Shown here in pieces: positions 1 through 10,682 of a stretch of 64,000 nucleotides of DNA. Positions within the stretch are counted from its first letter, which is position 1. Each line of letters begins with the position of its first letter. The stretch lies in NCBI RefSeq assembly GCF_014358075.1, contig NZ_JACONT010000005.1, positions 1-64,000 of the forward strand, written 5' to 3'. Below the pieces are notes generated by a model. The model was not told where the DNA came from, searched no databases, and worked only from the letters and a program-made list of their open reading frames with translations. Source of the DNA: Sphingomonas albertensis. GTDB lineage: Bacteria > Pseudomonadota > Alphaproteobacteria > Sphingomonadales > Sphingomonadaceae. A program made the translations under genes and the position numbers.

Positions 1-27
1 GTGAGGCTCAGGACCAGAATCCCAACC

Positions 28-90
28 ACCCCTCACCCTCCCGTCGCCAAGAGGCTCCTCCCTCCCTCTCCCCGACGGGGAGAGGGAAAA
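28..90. repeat. GTA-interspersed repeat, partial copy 1
   Basis: This is the right half of the repeat found at five other places in the GTA cluster (best full copies 3685-3831, 6434-6580 and 8394-8540). It contains the CCCTCACCCTCCCGTCGC segment and ends with the hairpin CTCTCCCCGACGGGGAGAG, directly downstream of the DUF2460 gene. The sequence at 1-27 resembles the centre of the repeat, and the left half presumably lies outside the window. Confidence 0.8.
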
Positions 91-2376
91 TCACGCCTCC
101 CGCACCTCGACCAAAGGCACACTCGCCGCCACCCCAGCCAGAAACGTAGCCCGCGCCACGCTCAACCGATCCTCGGCAAACCGAACCGGCACATCGAACG
201 CAAACCCCGCCGTCACCAAAGCCCCGAGAGCAGGCGCCACATCCAGCACCACCCACCCCCCAGCCTCCACGAAGAACGCCGAAGTCCCAACGCCATCCAC
301 CGCAACAGAAACGCTCCCCCCAACCGGCCGGGTAATCCGCCGCTCCATCGCCCCGTACGACTTCACCAGAGCAAACCGCCGAGCCACCCCGTCGCCAACC
401 CCGACGACCTCGCCCACCGCGTCGAAATCGAAAGGATCCCGCAACCGAAACCCCCGCGCCGCCCCCATCCGCGCCCGAAAGAACGCGAGCAGCACCCCGA
501 TATCCGCCTCGCTCCGAAGCCCCGGCCCGACATCATACGACGTCCGCGCCTCCGCCCACGCCGCATTCCGAGCCTCCCGCCCCCCCGAACTCGTCAGGAT
601 CGCGGTCGAGAACCCCGGCGCCACCTCGGCCTCACGCCCCAGCGCCAACGGAAACAGCACGTCATCGAACGCGTCCACGGCATCCTCCTGTTCGGTATCG
701 AAATGCACGAACCCATCCCGCATCACCTGAGGCAGCGCCCAGAGGAAGGTCTCCGCCACCCCCCGCCCCCGAGCCACCTCCGCCGCCGCCTCGATCAGCC
801 CCCACTGCACCGCCTGGTCAGGCCCCAAATCTGGCTGGAGCACGAACCCCGAAAGATAATGCTGCCTCTCGACCGGATACCCCAGCCGCGCGAACGCCAC
901 CGCCACGCCCTCCGCGGACGACGCGGAATCCCCCGCCGTCACCCAGTCGTAATCCTCCAGCTGCAACACATCGAACGCAGGACTGGCCCACCCCACCGGC
1001 ATGTTCGCCCGCTTCGCCTCGGGCGCCGCCGCATCCAGAACAGTCGGCAGATACGTCAGCAGATGCGTCACGCACCCCGGCGCCTCGGCCTTCGCCGCCG
1101 CCACCAGCGCAGCCGTCGATGCGGCGAGGCACACCCCCGCTGCATCCAAAGTCGCGATCCGCGCGGCATTCTTGACCCCCAGGATGCTACCGATCGCCAC
1201 CGGAGCGAACGCCGCCACCGCGCTCGGATCATAGATGCACGGCCGCCCATCCGGCATGATCCACCACCAGGGTTCGCCGACCTGAAACTTCGCCGCCAAC
1301 CCCGCCGCCACCGCGATCCCCAGGAAAGCCCGCGCCACCGCCTGCAGATACTCCATCGCCCCGCCATGCGCCGGCGACAGCAACGTAGACGGCGGCTCCC
1401 ACCCGGTCAGCGCCGGCGACCCATCGGCGGCGCGCTGTTTCCAGTCGCCCCAGCAATGCGCATCGAACAGCTCGTAACTCAGCGACCAGATCACGTCGAA
1501 GCCGAGAGCGTTCGCCCGCACCGCAAAATCCCGATGCCACGCCGCGCACGCCGCATTCAGCACGCCCCCGGCCAGCGACACGTAAAACCCGCTCCCAGCC
1601 GCCTCGAGCCGGAAATAATGGCTCATCCCCACATAGTGCGTCATGCTCCCGCGATACCCGAGATGCAGCGCATTCCGCAGCAACCGCGCCGGCGTCAGGT
1701 TGTAGCTATCGTCATACCCCCCAGCGATCCGCACCCCGTGCTCCGGCACGACGGCGTCACCGATTGCCAGCACCGACCCCGGCCCCTCGCAGACCAGATC
1801 GGTCCACTCGACCCACCCCTCGCGCGGCGCAGCCAAGGCCACGTCCGCCCCCGAATACTCAGGCGGCACCACCGACACGAACATCCGGTCGATATCCCCC
1901 GCCCACACCGGATCGCTATCCTCGGGCAGTTCGAACCCGCCAACCATCGCCGCGAAATCGAGCGAGACCACCGCATCCTCCGGCGTCCCCACCACAAAAT
2001 TCCACAACCGCACATACCAGGACCGAGCGACCCCCGCCGCATCCCGCCCCTCGATCGTGAGTGTCGGGCCATTGATCGCGTCCAGCGCCATCACCCCCGA
2101 AGACCGCCACCGAAACCGCAGCCGACAGTCCCGAAAATCCCGCGAAGTCTCATATTTGAGCAACGGATGGTCGAACCGATCGACCGCCTCCCAGATCAAT
2201 CCCGCGAGATCGTCGGCCTTATAGAAAACCGCATCCACCCGCAGCGAAGCGGGACCGGTGGTCACTACGGACGCCATCATCGGCCGAGGAAAATCCACCG
2301 TCCAAAACCGAGGATCGAACCGCGAGACCAGCCCCTCGACCTGCACAGTCCGCCCCGAGCAAAGCCAATGCGCCAT
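91..2376 (-). CDS. GTA tail/host-interaction protein with C-terminal DUF2460 domain
   Basis: This 761-residue protein is the last gene of the GTA run inside the window. The C-terminal ~205 residues (from about 555) match the DUF2460 (TIGR02217) pattern of GTA distal tail proteins. They include the run ending in GFRLRDPFDF and the segment RRFALVKSYG, which are typical of that family. The first ~550 residues are an additional region rich in aromatic residues, with motifs such as WSLSYELFD and GEPWWWIMPDG. These suggest a carbohydrate-binding or glycosidase-like fold, but I cannot name the family. The usual DUF2460 protein is ~210 residues, so this is a fusion. The start follows a strong AGGAGG site. 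GTA repeats flank both ends. The expected role is tail tip or receptor contact, which is inferred from position. Confidence 0.75.
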   Translation of the reverse strand: MAHWLCSGRTVQVEGLVSRFDPRFWTVDFPRPMMASVVTTGPASLRVDAVFYKADDLAGLIWEAVDRFDHPLLKYETSRDFRDCRLRFRWRSSGVMALDAINGPTLTIEGRDAAGVARSWYVRLWNFVVGTPEDAVVSLDFAAMVGGFELPEDSDPVWAGDIDRMFVSVVPPEYSGADVALAAPREGWVEWTDLVCEGPGSVLAIGDAVVPEHGVRIAGGYDDSYNLTPARLLRNALHLGYRGSMTHYVGMSHYFRLEAAGSGFYVSLAGGVLNAACAAWHRDFAVRANALGFDVIWSLSYELFDAHCWGDWKQRAADGSPALTGWEPPSTLLSPAHGGAMEYLQAVARAFLGIAVAAGLAAKFQVGEPWWWIMPDGRPCIYDPSAVAAFAPVAIGSILGVKNAARIATLDAAGVCLAASTAALVAAAKAEAPGCVTHLLTYLPTVLDAAAPEAKRANMPVGWASPAFDVLQLEDYDWVTAGDSASSAEGVAVAFARLGYPVERQHYLSGFVLQPDLGPDQAVQWGLIEAAAEVARGRGVAETFLWALPQVMRDGFVHFDTEQEDAVDAFDDVLFPLALGREAEVAPGFSTAILTSSGGREARNAAWAEARTSYDVGPGLRSEADIGVLLAFFRARMGAARGFRLRDPFDFDAVGEVVGVGDGVARRFALVKSYGAMERRITRPVGGSVSVAVDGVGTSAFFVEAGGWVVLDVAPALGALVTAGFAFDVPVRFAEDRLSVARATFLAGVAASVPLVEVREA

Positions 2377-2390
2377 AAGATCCTCCTAAT

Positions 2391-2482
2391 TCCCTCGCCC
2401 CTACGGGGAGAGGGAGGGGCCCGCGCGCCCTTGCGCGTGGGAGGGAGAGGGGCGTGAGGCACGGAACGCTCGCCCCCACCTC
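2391..2482. repeat. GTA-interspersed repeat, copy 2 (truncated on the right)
   Basis: This is the left ~90 bp of the repeat, lying just upstream of the DUF2460 start codon. It holds the hairpin CCCCTACGGGG and the purine-rich GGGAGGGAGAGGGG tract. A different REP-like palindrome (2485-2580) follows at once, so two repeat families are nested between the tape-measure and DUF2460 genes. Confidence 0.85.
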
Positions 2483-2484
2483 TT

Positions 2485-2580
2485 CGTCATCCCCGCGGAG
2501 GCGGGGACCCATAAACTCGAACGCCAGCGATCATTGCCGTCGGCCAGCCAGTATGGCTTCCCGCCTGCGCGGGAATGACG
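2485..2580. repeat. REP-like inverted repeat (GTCATCCCCGC type)
   Basis: The left arm GTCATCCCCGCGGAGGCGGG and the right arm CCCGCCTGCGCGGGAATGAC are near-complementary and enclose ~55 bp of unrelated sequence. This is the classical arrangement of a bacterial REP/BIME-type palindromic unit. Confidence 0.7.
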
Positions 2581-2624
2581 GATCGGAGGACGGCTATCCG
2601 CCGCAGCCCTACTCCGCTGCCGCC

Positions 2625-3173
2625 TCACTCCACCGCGAGCGCCGCCTTCACCGCCCGCGCCACCTGCCGCCCAGACTGCGCCAACACCCCCGCAGCACTC
2701 CCCCCGGCAGCATTCACCGTAATCGCCACCCGAACCTCACGCACGCCCCCCGGCGCACCCGTCTCGACCCGCCCGCTGGAGGTAGGCACGAAGACCTCCG
2801 CCCCCCGCTCCCCCACGACATACGCCCGCCCCGGCGACACCGGCCCACCAGTCGCCCGCCCAGGCAACCCGCCAACCAGCCCCGCCAGCGCCCCACTCAA
2901 ACCCCCGCCACCCAACACAGACTGCACCCCAGCCTTCAAAGCCGCCGAAGCAATCGCATCCAGCGCCGACAGAGCGACCCCCTTCAGCTCCTCGAACCCG
3001 AGCTTCCCCGACCGCACCGCGCGCAACAGCCCCGCCTCGACCCGCAGCGAAGCCCGCTCCGCCCCGCTCCCCAGCACGCTTTCCAGTTCCTCCCGCATCG
3101 ACGCGACATCGCGCGCAAACCCGGTCGTCCCCACCCGCACGCTCAGCAGCGCCGGCTCCAGATCGTCATCCAT
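2625..3173 (-). CDS. GTA tape measure-like protein
   Basis: This 182-residue protein occupies the tape-measure slot, between the tail chaperones and DUF2460. The C-terminal half has the motif GGPVSPGRAYVVGERGAEVF, which recurs at the C-terminus of phage tape-measure proteins. The N-terminal half is helical and low in hydrophobic runs. It is far shorter than phage tape measures (often over 600 residues) but similar in size to the Rhodobacter GTA gp11, consistent with a short tail. It overlaps the preceding chaperone gene by 8 nt. A region of GGGGLSGALAGLVGGLPG is low complexity. The family placement is good; the tail-length reading is inference. Confidence 0.8.
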   Translation of the reverse strand: MDDDLEPALLSVRVGTTGFARDVASMREELESVLGSGAERASLRVEAGLLRAVRSGKLGFEELKGVALSALDAIASAALKAGVQSVLGGGGLSGALAGLVGGLPGRATGGPVSPGRAYVVGERGAEVFVPTSSGRVETGAPGGVREVRVAITVNAAGGSAAGVLAQSGRQVARAVKAALAVE

Positions 3174-3357
3174 CAGGAAAAGCCCCCCTCAACCGCGCGA
3201 TCGTCGAAGCATCCGGCGGCGTTTGCACGTCGCCCACCAAAGCCCCCACGACCCCCGCCAATTCCGCCGGCGTAGCCCGCCAGAACACCTCCGGCGCCCA
3301 CCCCAACACCGCCCCCGCGAACCCGGCGAGCCGCGCCGCGCTATCGGAAAACGTCAC
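3166..3357 (-). CDS. phage tail assembly chaperone (rcc01693-like, TAC_6)
   Basis: This 63-residue protein begins at a GTG that overlaps the stop of the upstream gene (GTGA overlap). The sequence, with GWAPEVFWRATPAELAGVV near the middle, fits the small rcc01693-type chaperone found just before the tape measure in GTA clusters. Such proteins coat or fold the tape measure during tail assembly. Two small overlapping genes upstream of a tape measure are the usual layout of phage tail chaperones, there often linked by programmed frameshifting. Here each has its own start, and I saw no obvious slippery run. Confidence 0.75.
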   Translation of the reverse strand: MTFSDSAARLAGFAGAVLGWAPEVFWRATPAELAGVVGALVGDVQTPPDASTIARLRGAFPDG

Positions 3358-3668
3358 TTCCCCGCCAGGATCTGCCGCAACAGCACCCGCAACACCGGCG
3401 TCACCGCCGCCAGCCCCGCCTCGACGACAGCCTCCCCCAACCGCTCCCGAGTAACCCCCTCAGGGCACTCGCGCAGGCAATGCCAGAACAGCCCCACCAT
3501 CTCCCCAATCCCAAGCTTCCCCTCCGCCGCGCGTTCGACCAGCGCAAACAAAGGCCCCAACTCCCCCTCAGCCGCGACCAAAGCCGCAAAGCTGGGCCGC
3601 AAAACAAGAGTCTCCCCCCCGACCCGAAGAGCACCCTCCCCCCGAACCGAATTCGCCAGATCCGTCAT
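3354..3668 (-). CDS. GTA family protein gp10 (tail chaperone TAC_11-like)
   Basis: This 104-residue protein matches the gene transfer agent gp10 pattern: an RGEGALRVGGETLVLRPSFAAL-type beginning followed by a LGPLFALVERAAEGKLG helix and a helical C-terminus. The start ATG at 3668 is chosen because a GGAG site precedes it and because the frame upstream is repeat DNA. It sits between major tail protein and the smaller chaperone, where it probably assists tail tube and tape-measure assembly. Repeat copy 3 separates it from the tail-tube gene. Confidence 0.8.
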   Translation of the reverse strand: MTDLANSVRGEGALRVGGETLVLRPSFAALVAAEGELGPLFALVERAAEGKLGIGEMVGLFWHCLRECPEGVTRERLGEAVVEAGLAAVTPVLRVLLRQILAGK

Positions 3669-3684
3669 AAGATATCTCCAAAAT

Positions 3685-3831
3685 TCCCTCGCCCCTCCGG
3701 GGAGAGGGAGGGGCCCGCGCGCCCTTGCGCGTGGGAGGGAGAGGGGAGTGAGGCACGGAACACCCGCCCCAAAGCCCCTCACCCTCCCGTCGCGAGAGCT
3801 CCTCCTTCCCTCTCCCCGAAGGGGCGAGGGA
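3685..3831. repeat. GTA-interspersed repeat, full copy 3
   Basis: This is a full-length copy of about 147 bp. It has a left hairpin CCCCTCCGGGG, a central GGGCCCGCGCGCCCTTGCGC stretch, a GGGAGGGAGAGGGG tract, and a right hairpin CTCTCCCCGAAGGGGCGAG. It fills the whole gap between gp10 and the major tail protein gene, touching neither coding frame. Confidence 0.9.
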
Positions 3832-3837
3832 AAGCCG

Positions 3838-4245
3838 CTACCCCACCACCACCGCACCAGAAATCTCCAGACTAAGCGTATAAGATCGCTCCCCATTGAA
3901 ATCCCCGGCATAGTCCAGCCGAGACACCAGGAACTTCCCCGTCATCGTATCCCCGCCCTCGAACGCCAGCCGATAATCATCCAGCACCCCGGTCAGTGCG
4001 CTAGCCTTCACCCGCAACTCCGCCACCGAGCCGGTAAAGACGCCAGCCCCCGACACCGAAACGCTCCGAACCCCAGCCCCCGACAGCAACTGCCGCCACC
4101 CCCCAGAGTCCTTGGTGGTGACAACGATAGCCTCGCCATTCACCGACATCTGCGTCGTCCGCAGCCCGGCGACCGTGGCGTAAACCACCGGCGCCGCCCC
4201 GTTCCCCACCTTCAGCAGGAACGCACTCCCCTTCTCCACCGCCAT
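3838..4245 (-). CDS. GTA/phage major tail protein (TP901-1 family)
   Basis: This 135-residue tail-tube protein has the family's pattern: GSAFLLKVGNG near the N-terminus, then VAGLRTTQMSVNGEAIVVTT, then GGDTMTGKFLVSRLDYAGD with the closing SYTLSLEISGAV strand. The start at 4245 (MAVEKG) follows a GGGGGAGA site; an earlier in-frame ATG five codons upstream is possible. It lies between DUF3168 and gp10 as in Rhodobacter-type GTAs, where gp9 builds the tail tube. Confidence 0.85.
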   Translation of the reverse strand: MAVEKGSAFLLKVGNGAAPVVYATVAGLRTTQMSVNGEAIVVTTKDSGGWRQLLSGAGVRSVSVSGAGVFTGSVAELRVKASALTGVLDDYRLAFEGGDTMTGKFLVSRLDYAGDFNGERSYTLSLEISGAVVVG

Positions 4246-4314
4246 GTCGATCTCCCCCAAAGACGTTTCCCCGCGAAGGCGGGAACCTGCACCGCGTCTT
4301 CGCGGCGCAAAATC

Positions 4315-4698
4315 TCAACTCTCCCGGTACATCCGCACCAGAAACTCCGACGTCCCCCGCCACCGATCCCCGACCCGCAGCACCCGAGACCGAACCAGCG
4401 CCAGCCGAACCACCCGCCACCCCTCGCCAAGATCAGGCGGCAGCGCCTCCAGCCCCTCCTCGGCAGCAGCCAGCAAGGAACGCACCCGAACCGGCCGCTC
4501 CCCTCCATCGAACAGCGTCAGCAGAACGCGCCCCTCCCGCCCGACCCAGGTCTTCGTGCTCCAGTCCGACAACACCGGCTCGTCGACCACCGCATAAGGC
4601 AGCCCACCCCGCACCGGCGGCGCATCGAACACGCTCACATCCAGCACCGCGTTCAGCCGAGCCACGATCGCCGCCTGCAAGACCACCCGCCCACTCAC
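4315..4698 (-). CDS. DUF3168 head-tail joining protein
   Basis: This 127-residue protein matches the DUF3168 (GTA gp8-like) pattern, with LPYAVVDEP, a GREGRVLLTLFD strand pair and a RWRGTSEFLVRMYRES ending. These proteins complete the head-tail interface. The GTG start at 4698 overlaps the stop of the upstream gp6-like gene by 4 nt (GTGA), indicating translational coupling. A longer frame to 4743 exists but would overlap the upstream gene by 49 nt. Confidence 0.8.
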   Translation of the reverse strand: MSGRVVLQAAIVARLNAVLDVSVFDAPPVRGGLPYAVVDEPVLSDWSTKTWVGREGRVLLTLFDGGERPVRVRSLLAAAEEGLEALPPDLGEGWRVVRLALVRSRVLRVGDRWRGTSEFLVRMYRES

Positions 4699-5243
4699 GA
4701 ATGCACCTCGAGGCCCAACCGCATCCGCCGATAAGGCCGCCACAAAGCCGCCACCGCCGCCGGCGGCGCGACATCGCTCTCCCGATGGTCAAAGAGGTGC
4801 GCCACCAGCATCGCCACCCCCTGCGCGATCGGCGCCGGCACCGCCTCGAAAGTCAAAGCCAGCCCAGCCGAGTACGCCACGGCCACCCGCCCAGCCGATC
4901 CCGCGGCAAGAACCCGAACCCACCCGAACCCATCCGCATCGATATCGACCGCATACGCCCCGACAGCCAACACGAACGGCGCCCCCTCGCCAGGCAACCC
5001 GGTCAGTCCGGAAATCACGGTAACCGGCGCGACCAACAACCGCTGCCACCCCGCCGCGCTGGTCACCACATCCTCGAACGGCCGCCCGATCACCGCCGCC
5101 CCCAGGAAAGCCTCCCCCAGCAGCAAAGCCGTCTGCGCCAACCGCGCCAACACGACATCCTCCCCCGTCTCCACCCGCAACAAAGCCCTAGCCGCGACGA
5201 CCACCTCAGCGATCACCCCGGCAGAAATCGCCGACCCACCCAT
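4695..5243 (-). CDS. GTA head-tail connector (gp6-like, TIGR02215)
   Basis: This 182-residue protein has the phage_chp/gp6-like pattern: GRPFEDVVTSAAGWQRLLVA followed by a beta-rich middle and a helical end containing VAMLVAHLFDHRE and LWRPYRRMRLG. It is predicted to bind the portal and form the adaptor ring at the vertex. The ATG start lies 17 nt from repeat copy 4. The next gene overlaps its stop. Confidence 0.8.
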   Translation of the reverse strand: MGGSAISAGVIAEVVVAARALLRVETGEDVVLARLAQTALLLGEAFLGAAVIGRPFEDVVTSAAGWQRLLVAPVTVISGLTGLPGEGAPFVLAVGAYAVDIDADGFGWVRVLAAGSAGRVAVAYSAGLALTFEAVPAPIAQGVAMLVAHLFDHRESDVAPPAAVAALWRPYRRMRLGLEVHS

Positions 5244-5259
5244 GGAATTTCTCCTATTT

Positions 5260-5365
5260 CCCTCGCCCCTCCGGGGAGAGGGAGGGGCCCGCGCGCCCTT
5301 GCGCGTGGGAGGGAGAGGGGAGTTGGGACGAGCAACCCCCGCCCCAAACCCCTCCTCCCCCGTCG
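5260..5365. repeat. GTA-interspersed repeat, copy 4 (truncated on the right)
   Basis: The left two thirds of the repeat fill the gap between capsid and gp6 genes. The copy loses similarity after CCCCTCCTCCCCCGTCG, and the capsid stop codon follows immediately at 5367-5369. The repeat therefore abuts the end of the capsid frame. Confidence 0.85.
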
Positions 5366-5366
5366 A

Positions 5367-6368
5367 TCAAGCCACCGAGAACTTCATCAGCTTGATAGCC
5401 TCGGAGTTCGTCACGCACCCACCGACCCGCTTGGTCGCGTAGAAGTTCACGAAAGGCTTGTTCGAATACGGATCGCGCAGGATGCCCGTCTCGGTCCGCT
5501 CGGCGATGATGTACCCCGCGCGGAAGTTCCCGAACGCGATCGCCAGCGCATTCGCCGCGATATCCGGCATGTCCTCGGCCTCCACCACCGGATACCCGAG
5601 CAGCGTCGCCGGCTGCCCCGCCGCCAGGCTCGGCGCCCACACGAACGCGCCATCCGTCGTCTTGAACTTCCGGATCCGCGCCAGAGTCGCCGCATTCATG
5701 ACGAAGCTCGCGCCCTGCCGATAAGGCCCCCGCAGAGACTGGACGAGATCGATCAACCGCTCCTGCGGACTCGCCGAAAAGTCCCCCGCCGTCCCGCTCG
5801 CCAGATACTGCAAGGTCCCGAAAGCCCGAACGCCATCCGCAGTCGCCGCGGTAGCCGAAGTCAGAAACCCCTTCGGCCGCGACACGCCCGACCCGGACAC
5901 GAAAGCCGCCCCCTCGGCCTTCGCAAACTCCATCGCGATCTCGCCCGCCAGCCATTCCTCGGCATCGAACGCGGCATCGTCGAGCATCGCCTGGCTAGCC
6001 GAAGGATTGGCATACAGCTCCCCCGTAGGCGGCGCGATCTCGACGAACACCGGCGAAGCCGTCTCTGGCCGAGCCGCATTCTCCGCCGCCCACCCGGACG
6101 GCGTCCCCCCCGTCGTGACGAGCTTCCGATACCCAGCCGAGCCAACTTTCACCACATTGGCAATCGACCGGATCGGCGACACCGCCTTCAGCAGCGTATC
6201 GATCTGAGCATCGATCTCCCGCGGCACCGCAAAGCCGCCAGAGTCCCCCGTAACCCCCGTAAACGCCTTCATCTCCAGCGTGGCGCCAGTCCGAACGAAC
6301 CCCGCAAACGCCGCACTCACCCCAAGAGGCGCCGCCCCCTCCAGAACCGGCCGGTCAACAACACTCAT
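5367..6368 (-). CDS. phage/GTA major capsid protein, HK97 family
   Basis: This 333-residue protein is an HK97-type major capsid protein. The FAVPREIDAQIDTLLKAVSPIRS segment after a ~30-residue leader, the SSGW-like TPSGWAAE motif and the C-terminal LLGYPVVEAEDMPDIA...IAFGNF region are family hallmarks. The leader is short, and the first part is presumably trimmed by the adjacent protease. I chose the start at 6368 because GAGGAG is placed six bases before it; an ATG two codons earlier is too close to that site. It forms the GTA head. Confidence 0.9.
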   Translation of the reverse strand: MSVVDRPVLEGAAPLGVSAAFAGFVRTGATLEMKAFTGVTGDSGGFAVPREIDAQIDTLLKAVSPIRSIANVVKVGSAGYRKLVTTGGTPSGWAAENAARPETASPVFVEIAPPTGELYANPSASQAMLDDAAFDAEEWLAGEIAMEFAKAEGAAFVSGSGVSRPKGFLTSATAATADGVRAFGTLQYLASGTAGDFSASPQERLIDLVQSLRGPYRQGASFVMNAATLARIRKFKTTDGAFVWAPSLAAGQPATLLGYPVVEAEDMPDIAANALAIAFGNFRAGYIIAERTETGILRDPYSNKPFVNFYATKRVGGCVTNSEAIKLMKFSVA

Positions 6369-6433
6369 GTCCATCTCCTCGCATGAAACGAAAAAAGGCG
6401 CCCCGCAGGACGCCTCATGAAACTCACCGAAAA

Positions 6434-6580
6434 CCCTCGCCCCTACGGGGAGAGGGAGGGGCCCGCGCGCGCTTGCGCGTGGGAGGGAGAGGGGCGTGAG
6501 GCATGCAACACCCGCCCCAAAGCCCCTCACCCTTCCGTCGCAAGAGCTCCTCCCTCCCTCTCCCCGTCAGGGAGAGGGAG
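6434..6580. repeat. GTA-interspersed repeat, full copy 5 (partly coding)
   Basis: This full-length copy lies between protease and capsid genes. Unlike the other copies, its right ~54 bp are read as the C-terminal codons of the prohead protease, including the stop at 6527-6529. The left hairpin is CCCCTACGGGG and the right hairpin CTCTCCCCGTCAGGGAGAG. Confidence 0.9.
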
Positions 6581-6961
6581 GATCTCAACCCGAGCCAAGC
6601 TCTGCATCGGAACCGCCACCAAACTAACCTCCACCAACTCCACGGAAAGCAACTCCCGCCGCACCCCCTGCCGCACAGACAAAGCCCGATAGCCAACAGA
6701 CAACCCAGCCACCGCCCCACCCCGCACCAACCGAGCCAGCGCCAGATCCTCCACCACCCCCTCGACCCGCAACCCCCGCGCGTCCTCCACAACGACGGAC
6801 AGAGACCCGACCGCCCCCCCACGATGCTGCCATAACAAAGGCACCACGCCCGCGCCTTGGAACGCCCCCCGCCGCACCACATCCCCCGCCCGATCGACGA
6901 CATCGAACACCGCCGCATACCCGGCAAACGCCACCGTCCCGACGCCCGTCACTTCAACCAC
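6527..6961 (-). CDS. HK97-family prohead protease
   Basis: This 144-residue serine-type prohead protease starts with a beta strand holding FAGYAAVFDVVDRAGDVVRRGAF, followed by PLLWQHRGGAVGSL containing the catalytic His (QH) and then VAGLSVGYRA with the catalytic Ser. It processes capsid and scaffold during head maturation. The last ~18 residues (PLPDGEREGGALATEG region) are encoded by repeat copy 5, so the protein tail and stop codon come from an inserted repeat. It overlaps the upstream small gene by 13 nt. Compared with typical phage proteases it is short. Confidence 0.85.
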   Translation of the reverse strand: MVEVTGVGTVAFAGYAAVFDVVDRAGDVVRRGAFQGAGVVPLLWQHRGGAVGSLSVVVEDARGLRVEGVVEDLALARLVRGGAVAGLSVGYRALSVRQGVRRELLSVELVEVSLVAVPMQSLARVEILPLPDGEREGGALATEG

Positions 6962-7254
6962 GCGGCAAACCCCAGCTTAACCGCCAGCCCGGCCAACATC
7001 AGCGCCATCGCCAGCCGAGCGATCCACCCCACCACCGCCTTCCAAACCGACCGCTTCGCATCCCGCCACGCCGCCAACAGCTCGCGCAACTCCGCCACAT
7101 CCTCCCGAGCCCGCTCGTCGCTCAAAGCCACCCGCGCCAAGGCCCGAGCCGCCCCCAGCTCCCCAGCCTCCTCCACGATCGCCCGCAGAGTCACGAGGTC
7201 GACGCCCCGCTCAGCCCCCTGCCGCATCAACTGCGCCAAAACCGCCCCATCCAT
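6949..7254 (-). CDS. DUF6127-like small membrane-anchored GTA protein
   Basis: This 101-residue protein contains LVTLRAIVEEAGELGAARALARVAL, an amphipathic helical stretch, and a C-terminal hydrophobic segment (about residues 76-98). I recognise the pattern as DUF6127, seen between portal and protease in sphingomonad GTA clusters, but its function is unknown. The hydrophobic tail suggests membrane contact during head assembly; that is inference. Its ATG overlaps the portal stop codon. Confidence 0.65.
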   Translation of the reverse strand: MDGAVLAQLMRQGAERGVDLVTLRAIVEEAGELGAARALARVALSDERAREDVAELRELLAAWRDAKRSVWKAVVGWIARLAMALMLAGLAVKLGFAAWLK

Positions 7255-8375
7255 CAGACCACCTCCGATATGTCCAAGAGCGCCCGCTTCTCCGCATCGC
7301 TAAGAAACGAAGCCCCACTCACCATCCCCCAAAGCCGCTCCCGATCCTCGACCAGTGCCGGCACCCGATCGAGATCGACGGAAATCGCCGCCCCCTCGAA
7401 CCACCCGGCCAACCCCTGAGCGATTCCCGTCAAAATCGAAGACGCCAACGGCAGCACCCCCAGCCGCCAAAGCGCCCGGTTAGCCTCGCGGTAGTTCGCA
7501 TAGGAATTATCCCCCGGCAGCCCGAGCAGCATCGGCGGCACCCCGAACGCCAGCGCGATCTCCCGCGCCGCCGCCGCCTTCGTCCCCACGAAATCCATAT
7601 CCGCCGGCGACAGACTCAACGCCTGCCACCTGAGGCCCCCCTCCAGCAGCATCGGCCGCCCGGCATTCCCCGCCCCCGAGAACGACGCCTCCAGCTCCCC
7701 CCGCAACCGCTCGAACTGCTCGGTCGACAGCGTCGCGCCATCCTTCGGATCGTACATCAACGCCCCCGAAGGCCGCGCCGCGTTATCCAGCAAAGCCTTG
7801 TTCCACCGCGCCGCCGCATTGTGGATCGCCACCGCGCTCGACGCCGCCCCCAGGCACCCCAGCCCATAATGGTCATCCACCGGATTGAAGCTCTTCAGGT
7901 GGATCACCTCGGGCCGAACCGGATCCGCATGCAGCCGCGTAACCCGCTCCCCGACGCGGTACCGATACGCCGCCGGCCACCCGCTGGCATCCGCCTCCAC
8001 CGCAACCCGCTCTGGCCGAAGCGCAAACAACTCCGCCGCGCCCCCATCGACGTCGCGCAGCACCTGCACATACGCATTCCCATGCAACAGCATCTGCGCC
8101 GCCACCGTCTCGACCAGCGACTGCCCCCCGGACCGCGCGGTAACGAGCGCCACCAAAGCCGGATCAGACCCAAGCAAAGGCGCCGACCCAACGCACTCCA
8201 CCACCAGCTTCACCGCCCGCTGAACGATCGCATTCCCCAGATACCCCGCCCGCACCTGCGCCTCGTAGGAGTACGGCACATCCCCAAAAGCCCCCTGAAA
8301 CCCCGGCGCGCTCAGCGCACGCGACAACACCGGCCGCGACTCATCGCGCCCGGATTTCCACCCGAACAATTTCAT
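7254..8375 (-). CDS. phage/GTA portal protein, HK97 family
   Basis: This 373-residue protein forms the dodecameric DNA channel at the capsid vertex. Family signs are QMLLHGNAYVQVLRD (residues ~90-105), the DPVRPEVIHLKSFNPVDDHYGLGCLG segment, and EIALAFGVPPMLLGLPGDNSYANYREANRALWR in the clip/wing region. It lies downstream of the large terminase, separated by repeat copy 6, and its stop overlaps the start of the DUF6127-like gene. It is slightly shorter than phage portals, as is usual in GTAs. Confidence 0.9.
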   Translation of the reverse strand: MKLFGWKSGRDESRPVLSRALSAPGFQGAFGDVPYSYEAQVRAGYLGNAIVQRAVKLVVECVGSAPLLGSDPALVALVTARSGGQSLVETVAAQMLLHGNAYVQVLRDVDGGAAELFALRPERVAVEADASGWPAAYRYRVGERVTRLHADPVRPEVIHLKSFNPVDDHYGLGCLGAASSAVAIHNAAARWNKALLDNAARPSGALMYDPKDGATLSTEQFERLRGELEASFSGAGNAGRPMLLEGGLRWQALSLSPADMDFVGTKAAAAREIALAFGVPPMLLGLPGDNSYANYREANRALWRLGVLPLASSILTGIAQGLAGWFEGAAISVDLDRVPALVEDRERLWGMVSGASFLSDAEKRALLDISEVV

Positions 8376-8393
8376 CGATGATCTCCTGTAAAT

Positions 8394-8540
8394 TCCCTCG
8401 CCCCTCCGGGGAGAGGGAGGGGCCCGCGCGCCCTTGCGCGTGGGAGGGAGAGGGGAGTGAGGCTAGGAACGCCAGCCCCAACCACCCCTCACCCTCCCGT
8501 CGCAAGTGCTCCTCCTTCCCTCTCCCCGACGGGGAGAGGG
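8394..8540. repeat. GTA-interspersed repeat, full copy 6
   Basis: This full-length copy fills the gap between terminase and portal genes, ending 8 bp from the terminase stop. Left hairpin CCCCTCCGGGG, right hairpin CTCTCCCCGACGGGGAGAG. It differs from copy 3 only by scattered substitutions. Confidence 0.9.
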
Positions 8541-8547
8541 CCACCCC

Positions 8548-9900
8548 CTACAAAACCCGCACCGAAACCCGCGCCCGCGGCCCCAGCATCACCTCCGTCA
8601 TCGCCCAAACCAGCGCATCAGCCCGATCCGGCGACCGCCCCGGCCCCTCATACCCCCCGCCGGCAATCAACCCGCAAAGCTCATCCTCCAGATCCGGAAA
8701 CGCCCCCACATGCCAGGCCCGCCCGCTTTCATACAAAGCCACCACCGGCTCCGCCCGCGCCACCTTCCCCAGCGACGCATGCACCAGCTTCACCGGCATC
8801 GCCCGATCAGCACCGGAAAGGACACTCCCGACCATCTTCCCCCCCTGGTTAGCCTCCGCGATCACCCGATCCGCCCCATGCCGCTCGGCGCACTCGGCCA
8901 CCGCCCGAGCCCACCCCTCCGGACTGGCCCCGGAAACGCTGGCGTCCTCCAACACATAGGCAAACCCATCGACCCCCAGCGCAACGACCACGATCCCGCA
9001 AGCATCCCCCGGCCCCCCGGAAACGCTGCCAGCGGGAGGATCAACCCCCACCACGACCCGCGTCACCGCCGGCGCAAACGCCACCCGCCGAGACTCCACC
9101 AACGCCCGAGTCCACAAAGCCCCCGCGACATCCTCGATCAGCTCGCCATCGAGCTCCTGCCGTCCCAACCGCGTCCCCGCATAGGTCGCGGTCACCGCCT
9201 CGACGAAACTCACCGGCAGATGCACGTTATCGGCAGTCCGCCCCTGCGACCGCACCACCCCCGGCAACGCCAGTATCCGCCGCAGCAAAGCCACCGGCCG
9301 AGGCGTCGTCGTCACCACGATCCGCGGCAGATCGCCCAGCCGCAGCCCCATCATCAGATTGTCCCAAGTCGCCTTCCCGTTGCGCCACTTGGCGACCTCG
9401 TCGCACCACGCCGCCTGATGCTCCGGCCCCCGCAAAGCCTCGGGCGCCTCCGCCGAATAGGCGAACGCCAAGGCCCCGTTCGCAAACCGCAGCTCGCCCG
9501 AGCCCGCCCGCCACACCGGATCCTCGTCATCGCGCGCGACGGCGAGCAGCCCGCTCTTCCCCTCGATCATCACCCGCCGCACGTCCTCGACGGTCGCCCC
9601 GACCAGCGCGATGCGGGCGCCAGGATTGTCCCGCGCCACCTGACTGACCCACTCCGCCCCGGCGCGCGTCTTCCCGAACCCGCGCCCCGCCAAAATCACC
9701 CAGATTCGCCAGTCGTCGCGCAGGTCGGCCCCCGCCCCGAGATGCTGCCCCGGATGCGCCCACACCTCCCACCGATCATGCAGTTCCCGGCGCTGCGCCG
9801 TGGTCAGCATGCCCAACACCCAATCCGCGCGCGTCCGCGGCAACATCGCCAGCTCCGCCACCGGATCGCGCACCGGAGCCTCCTCCTCGTCCGCACTCAT
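8548..9900 (-). CDS. GTA/phage large terminase (DNA-packaging ATPase-nuclease)
   Basis: This 450-residue TerL powers DNA packaging and cuts concatemeric or host DNA. Walker A AGRGFGKT is at 71-78, Walker B AWCDEVAKW around 164-172, and the coupling region TTTPRPV follows. The nuclease half starts at VVVGVDPPAG with the first catalytic Asp and ends with RADALVWA carrying another acidic residue. Its ATG overlaps the small terminase stop (ATGA). In GTAs this enzyme packages random host DNA; whether this one does is inference from cluster context. Confidence 0.9.
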   Translation of the reverse strand: MSADEEEAPVRDPVAELAMLPRTRADWVLGMLTTAQRRELHDRWEVWAHPGQHLGAGADLRDDWRIWVILAGRGFGKTRAGAEWVSQVARDNPGARIALVGATVEDVRRVMIEGKSGLLAVARDDEDPVWRAGSGELRFANGALAFAYSAEAPEALRGPEHQAAWCDEVAKWRNGKATWDNLMMGLRLGDLPRIVVTTTPRPVALLRRILALPGVVRSQGRTADNVHLPVSFVEAVTATYAGTRLGRQELDGELIEDVAGALWTRALVESRRVAFAPAVTRVVVGVDPPAGSVSGGPGDACGIVVVALGVDGFAYVLEDASVSGASPEGWARAVAECAERHGADRVIAEANQGGKMVGSVLSGADRAMPVKLVHASLGKVARAEPVVALYESGRAWHVGAFPDLEDELCGLIAGGGYEGPGRSPDRADALVWAMTEVMLGPRARVSVRVL

Positions 9901-10682
9901 TCCGAAGGAGTTCCGGCCACGACATCCTGCCCGATCCCGCCATGCTCGATAGCGCCCTGCTCGATCGCCCCCTGTTCGATCGACACTTGCTCGACGACCT
10001 TGCCCCCGACCCGCTTGAACTCCTTCGCCGCGATCCGCCGCGCCAGCGCATCGAGCTGTTTGATCAGCGCCGCATCGGTCTCCTCGGCCGAAGCCCGAGC
10101 CTTGCGCCCCCGCCCGCCGGCCACGCCCGCAACCCGGTCCGCATTCCGCGCCAGCAACCGCAGCGCCAGGTCGACACTCGTTATGGTCGGCGTACCACCC
10201 AGCGACCCCACGATCACGCCATCGCGACCTCCCGCATCAGCGCCAGCCTCGGGCCCGGCACCGGGAACAACCGCATCCCCGCCCCCGTCCGCCGCCCGAG
10301 CCGCCGCTTCCGCCCGCCGCCGCTCCGCTCCGAAGCCCTCGGTCTTCGCCTCGCCGCACGTCGCCGCCCGCGCTTGTTCGATCCCCGCCTCGATCGCGGG
10401 CGCCGGGTCGATCCCCTCCAGCGCCAGTGCCATCAGCGCCTGTTCGAGCCGCCCATAGCCCTCCGCCAGCGCCTCCTGCCACTGCGCCGCAAACACCGGA
10501 TCGTGTCGCCGCACATAATAGGCGCCGCAATCCGTCATCCCCATCGCCGCCGCCGAAGCCCGCACGTTGCACGTCGCACTCAGCATCGCGAAAAACCCCT
10601 CACGTCGCGCCTTGGTCCACCCATCCTTGCGCACCGCGGCGCACTGCACGACCCGATTATCCGCCGCCACCAACCGCACCAT
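9897..10682 (-). CDS. GTA small terminase-like protein (gp1)
   Basis: This 261-residue protein is the first gene of the cluster. Residues ~20-80 look like a helix-turn-helix region (WTKARREGFFAMLSATCNVRAS, then AYYVRRHDPVFAAQWQEALAEGY), as in phage small terminases that recognise DNA for TerL. The middle is Ala/Gly rich and likely disordered. Near the C-terminus an EQGAI pentapeptide repeats, encoded by ~15 bp tandem units. Start at 10682 (MVRLVAAD) follows a GGGAG site; a frame extending to 10742 is less likely. No phage-type regulator or integrase precedes it. Confidence 0.7.
   Translation of the reverse strand: MVRLVAADNRVVQCAAVRKDGWTKARREGFFAMLSATCNVRASAAAMGMTDCGAYYVRRHDPVFAAQWQEALAEGYGRLEQALMALALEGIDPAPAIEAGIEQARAATCGEAKTEGFGAERRRAEAAARAADGGGDAVVPGAGPEAGADAGGRDGVIVGSLGGTPTITSVDLALRLLARNADRVAGVAGGRGRKARASAEETDAALIKQLDALARRIAAKEFKRVGGKVVEQVSIEQGAIEQGAIEHGGIGQDVVAGTPSE
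9942..9995. repeat. short tandem repeats in the small terminase C-terminus
   Basis: On the plus strand the units GCGCCCTGCTCGATC, GCCCCCTGTTCGATC and a degenerate further unit follow each other. They encode IEQGA repeats in the small terminase. Unit length is a multiple of three, so copy-number changes would keep the frame. Confidence 0.7.

Follow-up and report, generated by a model that had tools for sequence, protein, structure and literature searches.

Among described systems, the one closest to the locus reported here is the GTA cluster of Caulobacter crescentus, which, according to excerpts of the paper by Tran and Le (PMC11150451), carries, between the terminase and portal genes, a set of three GC-rich direct repeats, each 150 bp long and containing inverted repeats. 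The same excerpts state that these repeats (terGTA) terminate transcription from a strong promoter and that GafZ lets some of the polymerase through (PMC11150451). In excerpts of two further papers, GafA is annotated as DUF6456, and its C-terminal part corresponds to GafZ (PMC9765227, PMC9638019). Within the literature that we found, anti-termination of a GTA has been shown in Caulobacter only (PMC11150451, in excerpt), and how a lethal particle operon is silenced and yet expressed over approximately 15 kb at once is an open question. A second set of comparable systems consists of palindromic repeats such as the NEMIS/Correia, ERIC, and YPAL elements and the REP/BIME sequences. Our limited literature search returned nothing on point for GTAs together with REPs or for palindromic repeats of Sphingomonas, and no NEMIS-, ERIC-, or YPAL-type elements from sphingomonads; within that search, the pattern of repeats at GTA gene junctions described below was not met in print.

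The window (the whole 64,000-nucleotide stretch of Sphingomonas albertensis DNA that was analyzed) begins at base 1 of contig C46, inside a repeat copy, and contains a GTA operon on the minus strand with the gene order terminase, portal, orf3.5, protease, capsid, gp6, gp8, gp9, gp10, gp11, and gp12 (Table 1). For genes that Pfam did not name, the gp names follow the RcGTA gene order. A reading of the sequence found one palindromic element in six junction copies, and all six places named in the preliminary description were real, the one given there as 28-90 being cut by the contig end. The element was present at all nonoverlapping junctions from terminase through gp12 except gp8/gp9 and, as had also been claimed, was absent from the overlapping junctions portal/orf3.5, orf3.5/protease, and gp6/gp8. 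A strict hairpin pattern (at most 3 mismatches) gave nine matches in the 64 kb, every one at or below position 8540, compared with a mean of 0.08 and a maximum of 2 in shuffled controls. Thus, the claim that the other 53 kb hold no copy stands for the hairpin, and the nearest copy beyond the window is at C46:70199. An Rfam scan of the window returned one tRNA and nothing else.

Table 1. GTA genes, repeat copies, and the capsid-leader hairpin in the window, in order of transcription
Feature	Position	Strand	Basis or remark
Terminase large subunit gene	8548-9900	-	Pfam Terminase_6N, Terminase_6C
Full repeat copy, terminase (gp2)/portal junction	8394-8540	-	Counterpart in G018 and G024
Portal gene	7254-8375	-	Pfam Phage_portal
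Prohead protease gene	6527-6961	-	Pfam Peptidase_S78; 3' end inside repeat
Full repeat copy, protease/capsid junction	6434-6580	-	Holds protease stop codon (6527)
Terminator-like hairpin with U6 tract, capsid leader, apart from repeat	6391-6416	-	Terminator scan (stem 6416-6395)
Major capsid gene	5367-6368	-	Pfam Phage_capsid
Partial repeat copy (downstream half), capsid/gp6 junction	5259-5365	-	
Tail tube gene (gp9)	3838-4245	-	Pfam Phage_tail_2
Full repeat copy, tail tube (gp9)/gp10 junction	3685-3831	-	
Partial repeat copy (downstream half), gp11/gp12 junction	2391-2482	-	
gp12-type gene, noncontractile tail sheath domains and DUF2460	91-2376	-	Pfam
Repeat copy past gp12, cut by end of contig C46	1-90	-	

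A full copy of approximately 147 bp consists of two hairpins about 123 nt apart, each of the form CCCTCnCCCC-nnn-GGGGnGAGGG. In the three full copies, the outer arms pair with each other over 27 to 29 nt (85 to 93% complementary, about 91 nt apart), so that these copies carry terminal inverted repeats as MITE-like elements of the NEMIS/ERIC kind do. The two halved copies keep only the half that adjoins the downstream gene. One repeat edge lies 14 to 19 nt 5' of the start codon at portal, gp6, gp10, and gp12, where it adjoins the ribosome-binding site, and the other lies a few nucleotides past the upstream stop codon, with exceptions at gp11/gp12, where a second palindrome occupies the rest of the gap, and at the protease gene. 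The protease frame enters the repeat (6527-6580), which supplies its last codons and its stop, and the matched protease frames of the related loci L159 and L161 likewise contain a repeat hairpin. The second palindrome in the gp11/gp12 gap belongs to an unrelated family (2485-2581, CGTCATCCCCGCGGAGGCGGGGA ... TTCCCGCCTGCGCGGGAATGACG), and a similar short palindrome lies at gp8/gp9 (approximately 4265-4305). A single GTA junction can hold as many as three palindromic families, unrelated to one another, in L160 and L161 (S. aerolata, Leaf20).

In the source genome (G000, S. faeni-like; 4.05 Mb in 80 contigs), a count that allowed at most 2 mismatches gave 96 such hairpins, compared with 9 in the control, and blastn gave 64 matches, both strands of the palindrome being counted. 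These numbers rule out a repeat unique to the operon. The copies are many, interspersed, and mostly intergenic, again as in MITE-like elements of the NEMIS/ERIC kind, and the REP-like repeated insertion proposed in the preliminary description is thereby supported. Nine of the 96 hairpins fell within 10,682 bp (0.26% of the genome), where about 0.23 would be expected from the 87 outside; P values for this enrichment come out too strong, as they assume 60 elements by estimate and the hairpins come in pairs. In blocks of two near relatives (480 kb of G018 and 400 kb of G024), non-GTA elements lay mostly in same-strand or convergent gaps, and the 41 other runs that were five or more genes long had an element at 12 of 232 junctions (12 of the 129 gaps of at least 25 nt), with a maximum of 2 per run. 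The GTA run of G024 had an element at 6 of 17 junctions (6 of 12 gaps of at least 25 nt), and that of G018, which was divided by the gene caller, had one in three of five gaps; gene calls were made with a simple codon-usage caller written for this analysis. Overall, we are dealing with a REP/MITE-like palindrome of intergenic regions, which is dispersed over the whole genome and overrepresented in the GTA operon. Copies also lie within about 90 bases of contig starts, at window position 1 and in contigs C7, C28, C49, and C51 of G000, which suggests that the assembly breaks at the repeat.

Our tentative preference is for a REP/MITE-like repeat that was amplified in the operon and that may act as, or be tolerated as, a series of elongation barriers under anti-termination. 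One repeat subtype would have been amplified and homogenized locally inside the operon, and its transcribed copies would form long, very stable hairpins that may hinder ordinary RNA polymerase, as the Caulobacter terGTA repeats do. Such barriers would stop the lethal operon from leaking, and polymerase modified by a GafZ-type anti-terminator would read through them; anti-termination would also account for the hairpins being tolerated in the operon. We infer both the slowing or stopping of polymerase and its relief by a DUF6456 protein from the Caulobacter work and from the position of the copies. In favor of this reading are the enrichment, the single subtype, and the uniform orientation of the GTA copies, the excess of hairpins at GTA junctions of other sphingomonads, the U-tract hairpin ahead of the capsid gene, and the Caulobacter precedent together with the DUF6456 gene. 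The source genome has a GafZ-family (DUF6456) gene at C12:69147-69524 (164-amino-acid frame, E value of 1.8e-39), which is a candidate anti-terminator, and such a gene was found in 36 of the 41 genomes searched and, among 14 controls, only in Caulobacter. Counting against this reading, a search for GafY with PF08299 gave no match. A distance of less than 12 kb between the DUF6456 and capsid genes was seen in 12 of these genomes, which belong mostly to other genera; in the faeni group, G000, G018, and G024 among them, the two genes lie apart. As in the terGTA arrangement, a GC-rich palindromic repeat lies in the terminase/portal gap of the window, and some listed palindrome family was present at this junction in 10 of 11 faeni/aerolata genomes; tandem repeats like those of terGTA were found in this gap in three genomes only, which also counts against barriers.

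A neutral origin is nearly as likely as barriers and is itself a tentative choice. Here, REP/MITE-like elements would insert past stop codons, where insertion is cheap, and would have no function: with an operon that is silent in most cells and junctions that lack promoters, insertions would survive, and local gene conversion would keep the copies alike. The scatter of the same family over the genome agrees with such an origin, and so does the comparison with relatives. Among the eleven faeni/aerolata genomes, which are not independent of one another, 61 of 66 junction-genome cells held this repeat family and 64 held some listed palindromic family; for the two empty cells (terminase/portal in L154 and protease/capsid in L161), the gap had been set to zero though hairpins are present. 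All five testable GTA sites were occupied in both G018 and G024. The preliminary description had proposed counting the repeat over the genome and comparing its junctions among relatives, and had named equal abundance everywhere at unshared positions as the outcome that would speak against it. We found strong enrichment in the operon and junctions shared by 11 genomes, but non-GTA copies were retained equally, with 15 of 18 non-GTA loci occupied in at least one of G018 and G024, two more outside the test, and one (L023) without a hairpin in G018. Because non-GTA copies are retained as often, a shared place is no proof of selection, and sharing among relatives was discarded as evidence for it. 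At one inspected site where a relative lacks the element, another palindromic repeat was found in its place rather than a clean empty site. The subfamily in S. aerolata and Leaf20 is a different one, with many copies ending in GGGGTTTT and other palindromic families alongside, and the occurrence of several unrelated palindromic families at the same junctions in these two and in L153, L156, L157, and L158 also favors neutral insertion.

The sequences of the genes and of the copies bear on the same choice. In nine faeni-group genomes (36 pairs), the GTA genes differed by 24.5% at four-fold sites and by 7% in amino acids, which indicates purifying selection and hence an operon that is not decaying, and argues against a neutral sink. 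The repeat core was much less divergent, with identities of 0.928 at the same junction and 0.930 between junctions of one genome, and linker identities were 0.69 to 0.70. A small junction-specific signal (0.928 for the same junction versus 0.916 for different junctions; permutation P of 0.004) is on the side of neutrality. Against it, cores in three genomes reached 0.971 for GTA copies versus 0.906 for non-GTA orthologues (group test, P of 0.029), while linkers were alike (0.736 versus 0.712; P of 0.80); non-GTA paralogues in the three genomes had a core identity of 0.777, and the gp12 group was a low exception (0.785). L156, whose hairpins are identical, was used in place of G024 for the identity comparisons. 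The greater likeness of GTA copies than of those elsewhere looks like local amplification and homogenization, and the likeness of the cores calls for homogenization, constraint, or both.

All five uncut window copies were of one inner-hairpin subtype, which occurred in 2 of the 18 non-GTA loci of G000, another type being found in 7. In the seven faeni loci L153 to L159, the GTA subtype appeared 35 times and was never reversed. The exact module GGGCCCCTCCCTCTCCCC was found 11 times in G000 (5 in the GTA), 20 times in G018 (6), and 13 times in G024 (6). All GTA copies were in the coding orientation, that of transcription, and non-GTA same-strand copies had coding:anti ratios of 4:5 (G000), 4:6 (G018), and 3:6 (G024). 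Replication-strand bias was rejected as the source of the uniform orientation, since non-GTA modules split 5:5 and 4:4 in a test that placed dnaA at 372 kb of G018 and assumed the terminus to be opposite. Uniform orientation and likeness together could arise by local copying alone.

Hairpins in GTA gaps were also common across sphingomonads, as counted in 80 named loci (L153 to L232), several of which are shortened by contig ends. A broad hairpin definition, which takes in hairpins from several sequence families, gave at least one element in 28 of the other 71 sphingomonad GTA loci; only 4 of these 71 match the strict pattern, with no more than 2 mismatches allowed. The elements so defined numbered 59 in the GTA regions (601 gaps, 952 kb) and 3 in the flanks (247 gaps, 325 kb). 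Under this definition, the most used junctions were terminase/portal (14), gp11/gp12 (11), capsid/gp6 (9), and protease/capsid (6); the junctions used in other genomes were mostly those that have gaps, as neutral insertion would lead one to expect. Perfect stems of at least 9 bp, whatever their sequence, occurred in 96 of 409 GTA gaps. In the same loci, same-strand gaps outside the GTA had them in 6 of 128 cases (P of 2.7e-7); these gaps are an imperfect control for operon-internal ones because some bear promoters. Elsewhere, such stems were found in 11 of 51 convergent gaps and in 38 of 246 same-strand non-GTA gaps of the G018 and G024 blocks, with about 1% in shuffles. In hairpin content, GTA gaps thus resemble convergent gaps, which are the usual site of terminators and REPs. 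One record in this set (L183), titled Arthrobacter sp. TPD3018, holds a Sphingomonas-type GTA cluster with a capsid 77% identical, and its name looks wrong.

Counting against a barrier role, a terminator scan made no call at the window repeats, with 12 sites found versus 10.9 expected in shuffles. The stem followed by a U-tract that marks an intrinsic terminator is lacking at these repeats and is present in the separate capsid-leader hairpin, which has nine pairs and six U residues and lies 22 nt upstream of the capsid start. Capsid leaders contained a U-tract hairpin in all nine faeni/aerolata genomes and in 15 of the 54 others, compared with 8 of 265 other GTA junctions (P of 8e-8), 4 of 221 other same-strand gaps, and 4 of 52 convergent gaps; within the faeni/aerolata loci, 4 of 54 other GTA junctions had one. 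Twenty of 24 capsid-leader sites ended 19 to 30 nt before the start codon, with varying stem sequences, and in L154 the terminator-like site is the repeat hairpin itself. A slightly different scan found the capsid-leader feature in 23 of 79 loci and in 0 of 395 shuffles. This recurrent hairpin has the look of a terminator or leader element under selection, and its recurrence with changing sequence argues against neutrality. Stems near the start codon without a U-tract were not capsid specific (capsid, 18 of 79; gp6, 31 of 79; portal, 18 of 74; gp12, 18 of 66). Few strong hairpins were followed by a T-run, 8 of the 28 from faeni/aerolata loci and 11 of the 92 from other loci, though a U-tract stands after many of the S. 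aerolata and Leaf20 copies (GGGGTTTT).

Less probable is a role in RNA processing or stability, in which RNase III would cut the hairpins, or 3' exonucleases would be blocked by them, and the operon RNA would be segmented as with NEMIS and ERIC. Excerpts on NEMIS/Correia elements and on orientation-dependent effects of ERIC (PMC2229807, PMC10969869) provide precedents, and both the uniform orientation of the GTA copies and their predicted folds suit this role, the three full copies with their long paired ends giving -119.0, -108.8, and -106.6 kcal/mol as raw values that carry no shuffle control. Two features make it rather unlikely. In the halved copies, one of the inverted ends is missing and the long stem cannot form. 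Moreover, genes with few and with many product molecules (terminase, protease, capsid, tail tube, gp11, and gp12) are all followed by copies, with no visible stoichiometric logic, so that the tuning of capsid against tail protein levels suggested in the preliminary description is not borne out. With the Caulobacter precedent at the same junction, a transcription barrier seems at least as likely as RNA cutting or stabilizing. An artifact of assembly or annotation, which the start of the window at a contig end within a copy might suggest, is hardly credible, as the same junctions are filled in genomes that were assembled independently and whose repeat sequences differ, and five of the six copies have their sites filled in both G018 and G024.

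Elongation barriers under anti-termination can be extended to a more general and more doubtful proposal, that sphingomonad GTA operons recruit circulating palindromic repeats as distributed transcription brakes. The U-tract hairpin would guard the capsid gene and the repeats the other junctions, only anti-terminated polymerase would complete the operon, and the S. faeni group would have fixed one uniform subtype at six junctions in one orientation. The family-wide hairpin excess and the capsid U-tract hairpin would make distributed termination and anti-termination testable in a second bacterial order, and the operon would be a case of genome repeats that are used, or tolerated, owing to the mode of transcription.

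The element shares features with each of the known systems. Like REP/BIME sequences, it consists of extragenic palindromes in opposite-orientation pairs, with many per genome; unlike them, it is not accompanied by a Y1 (RAYT-type) transposase, since PF01797 had no match in G000, G018, or G024 (10 of 61 genomes matched), and RAYT-driven REPs were ruled out on this basis. It resembles NEMIS/Correia, ERIC, and YPAL elements in its size class (approximately 100 to 170 bp), its long inverted repeats, its intergenic position, the apparent lack of a coding gene of its own, and its foldable RNA, but differs from them in being concentrated in one operon. The likeness to terGTA of C. crescentus, drawn from the published description, lies in the GC-rich inverted-repeat units of about 150 bp inside the GTA cluster, at terminase/portal, and in the GafZ-family gene in the genome, and a terminator role for the Sphingomonas repeat is putative. 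Unlike the terGTA repeats, the Sphingomonas copies stand one per junction over six junctions and come from a genome-wide family.
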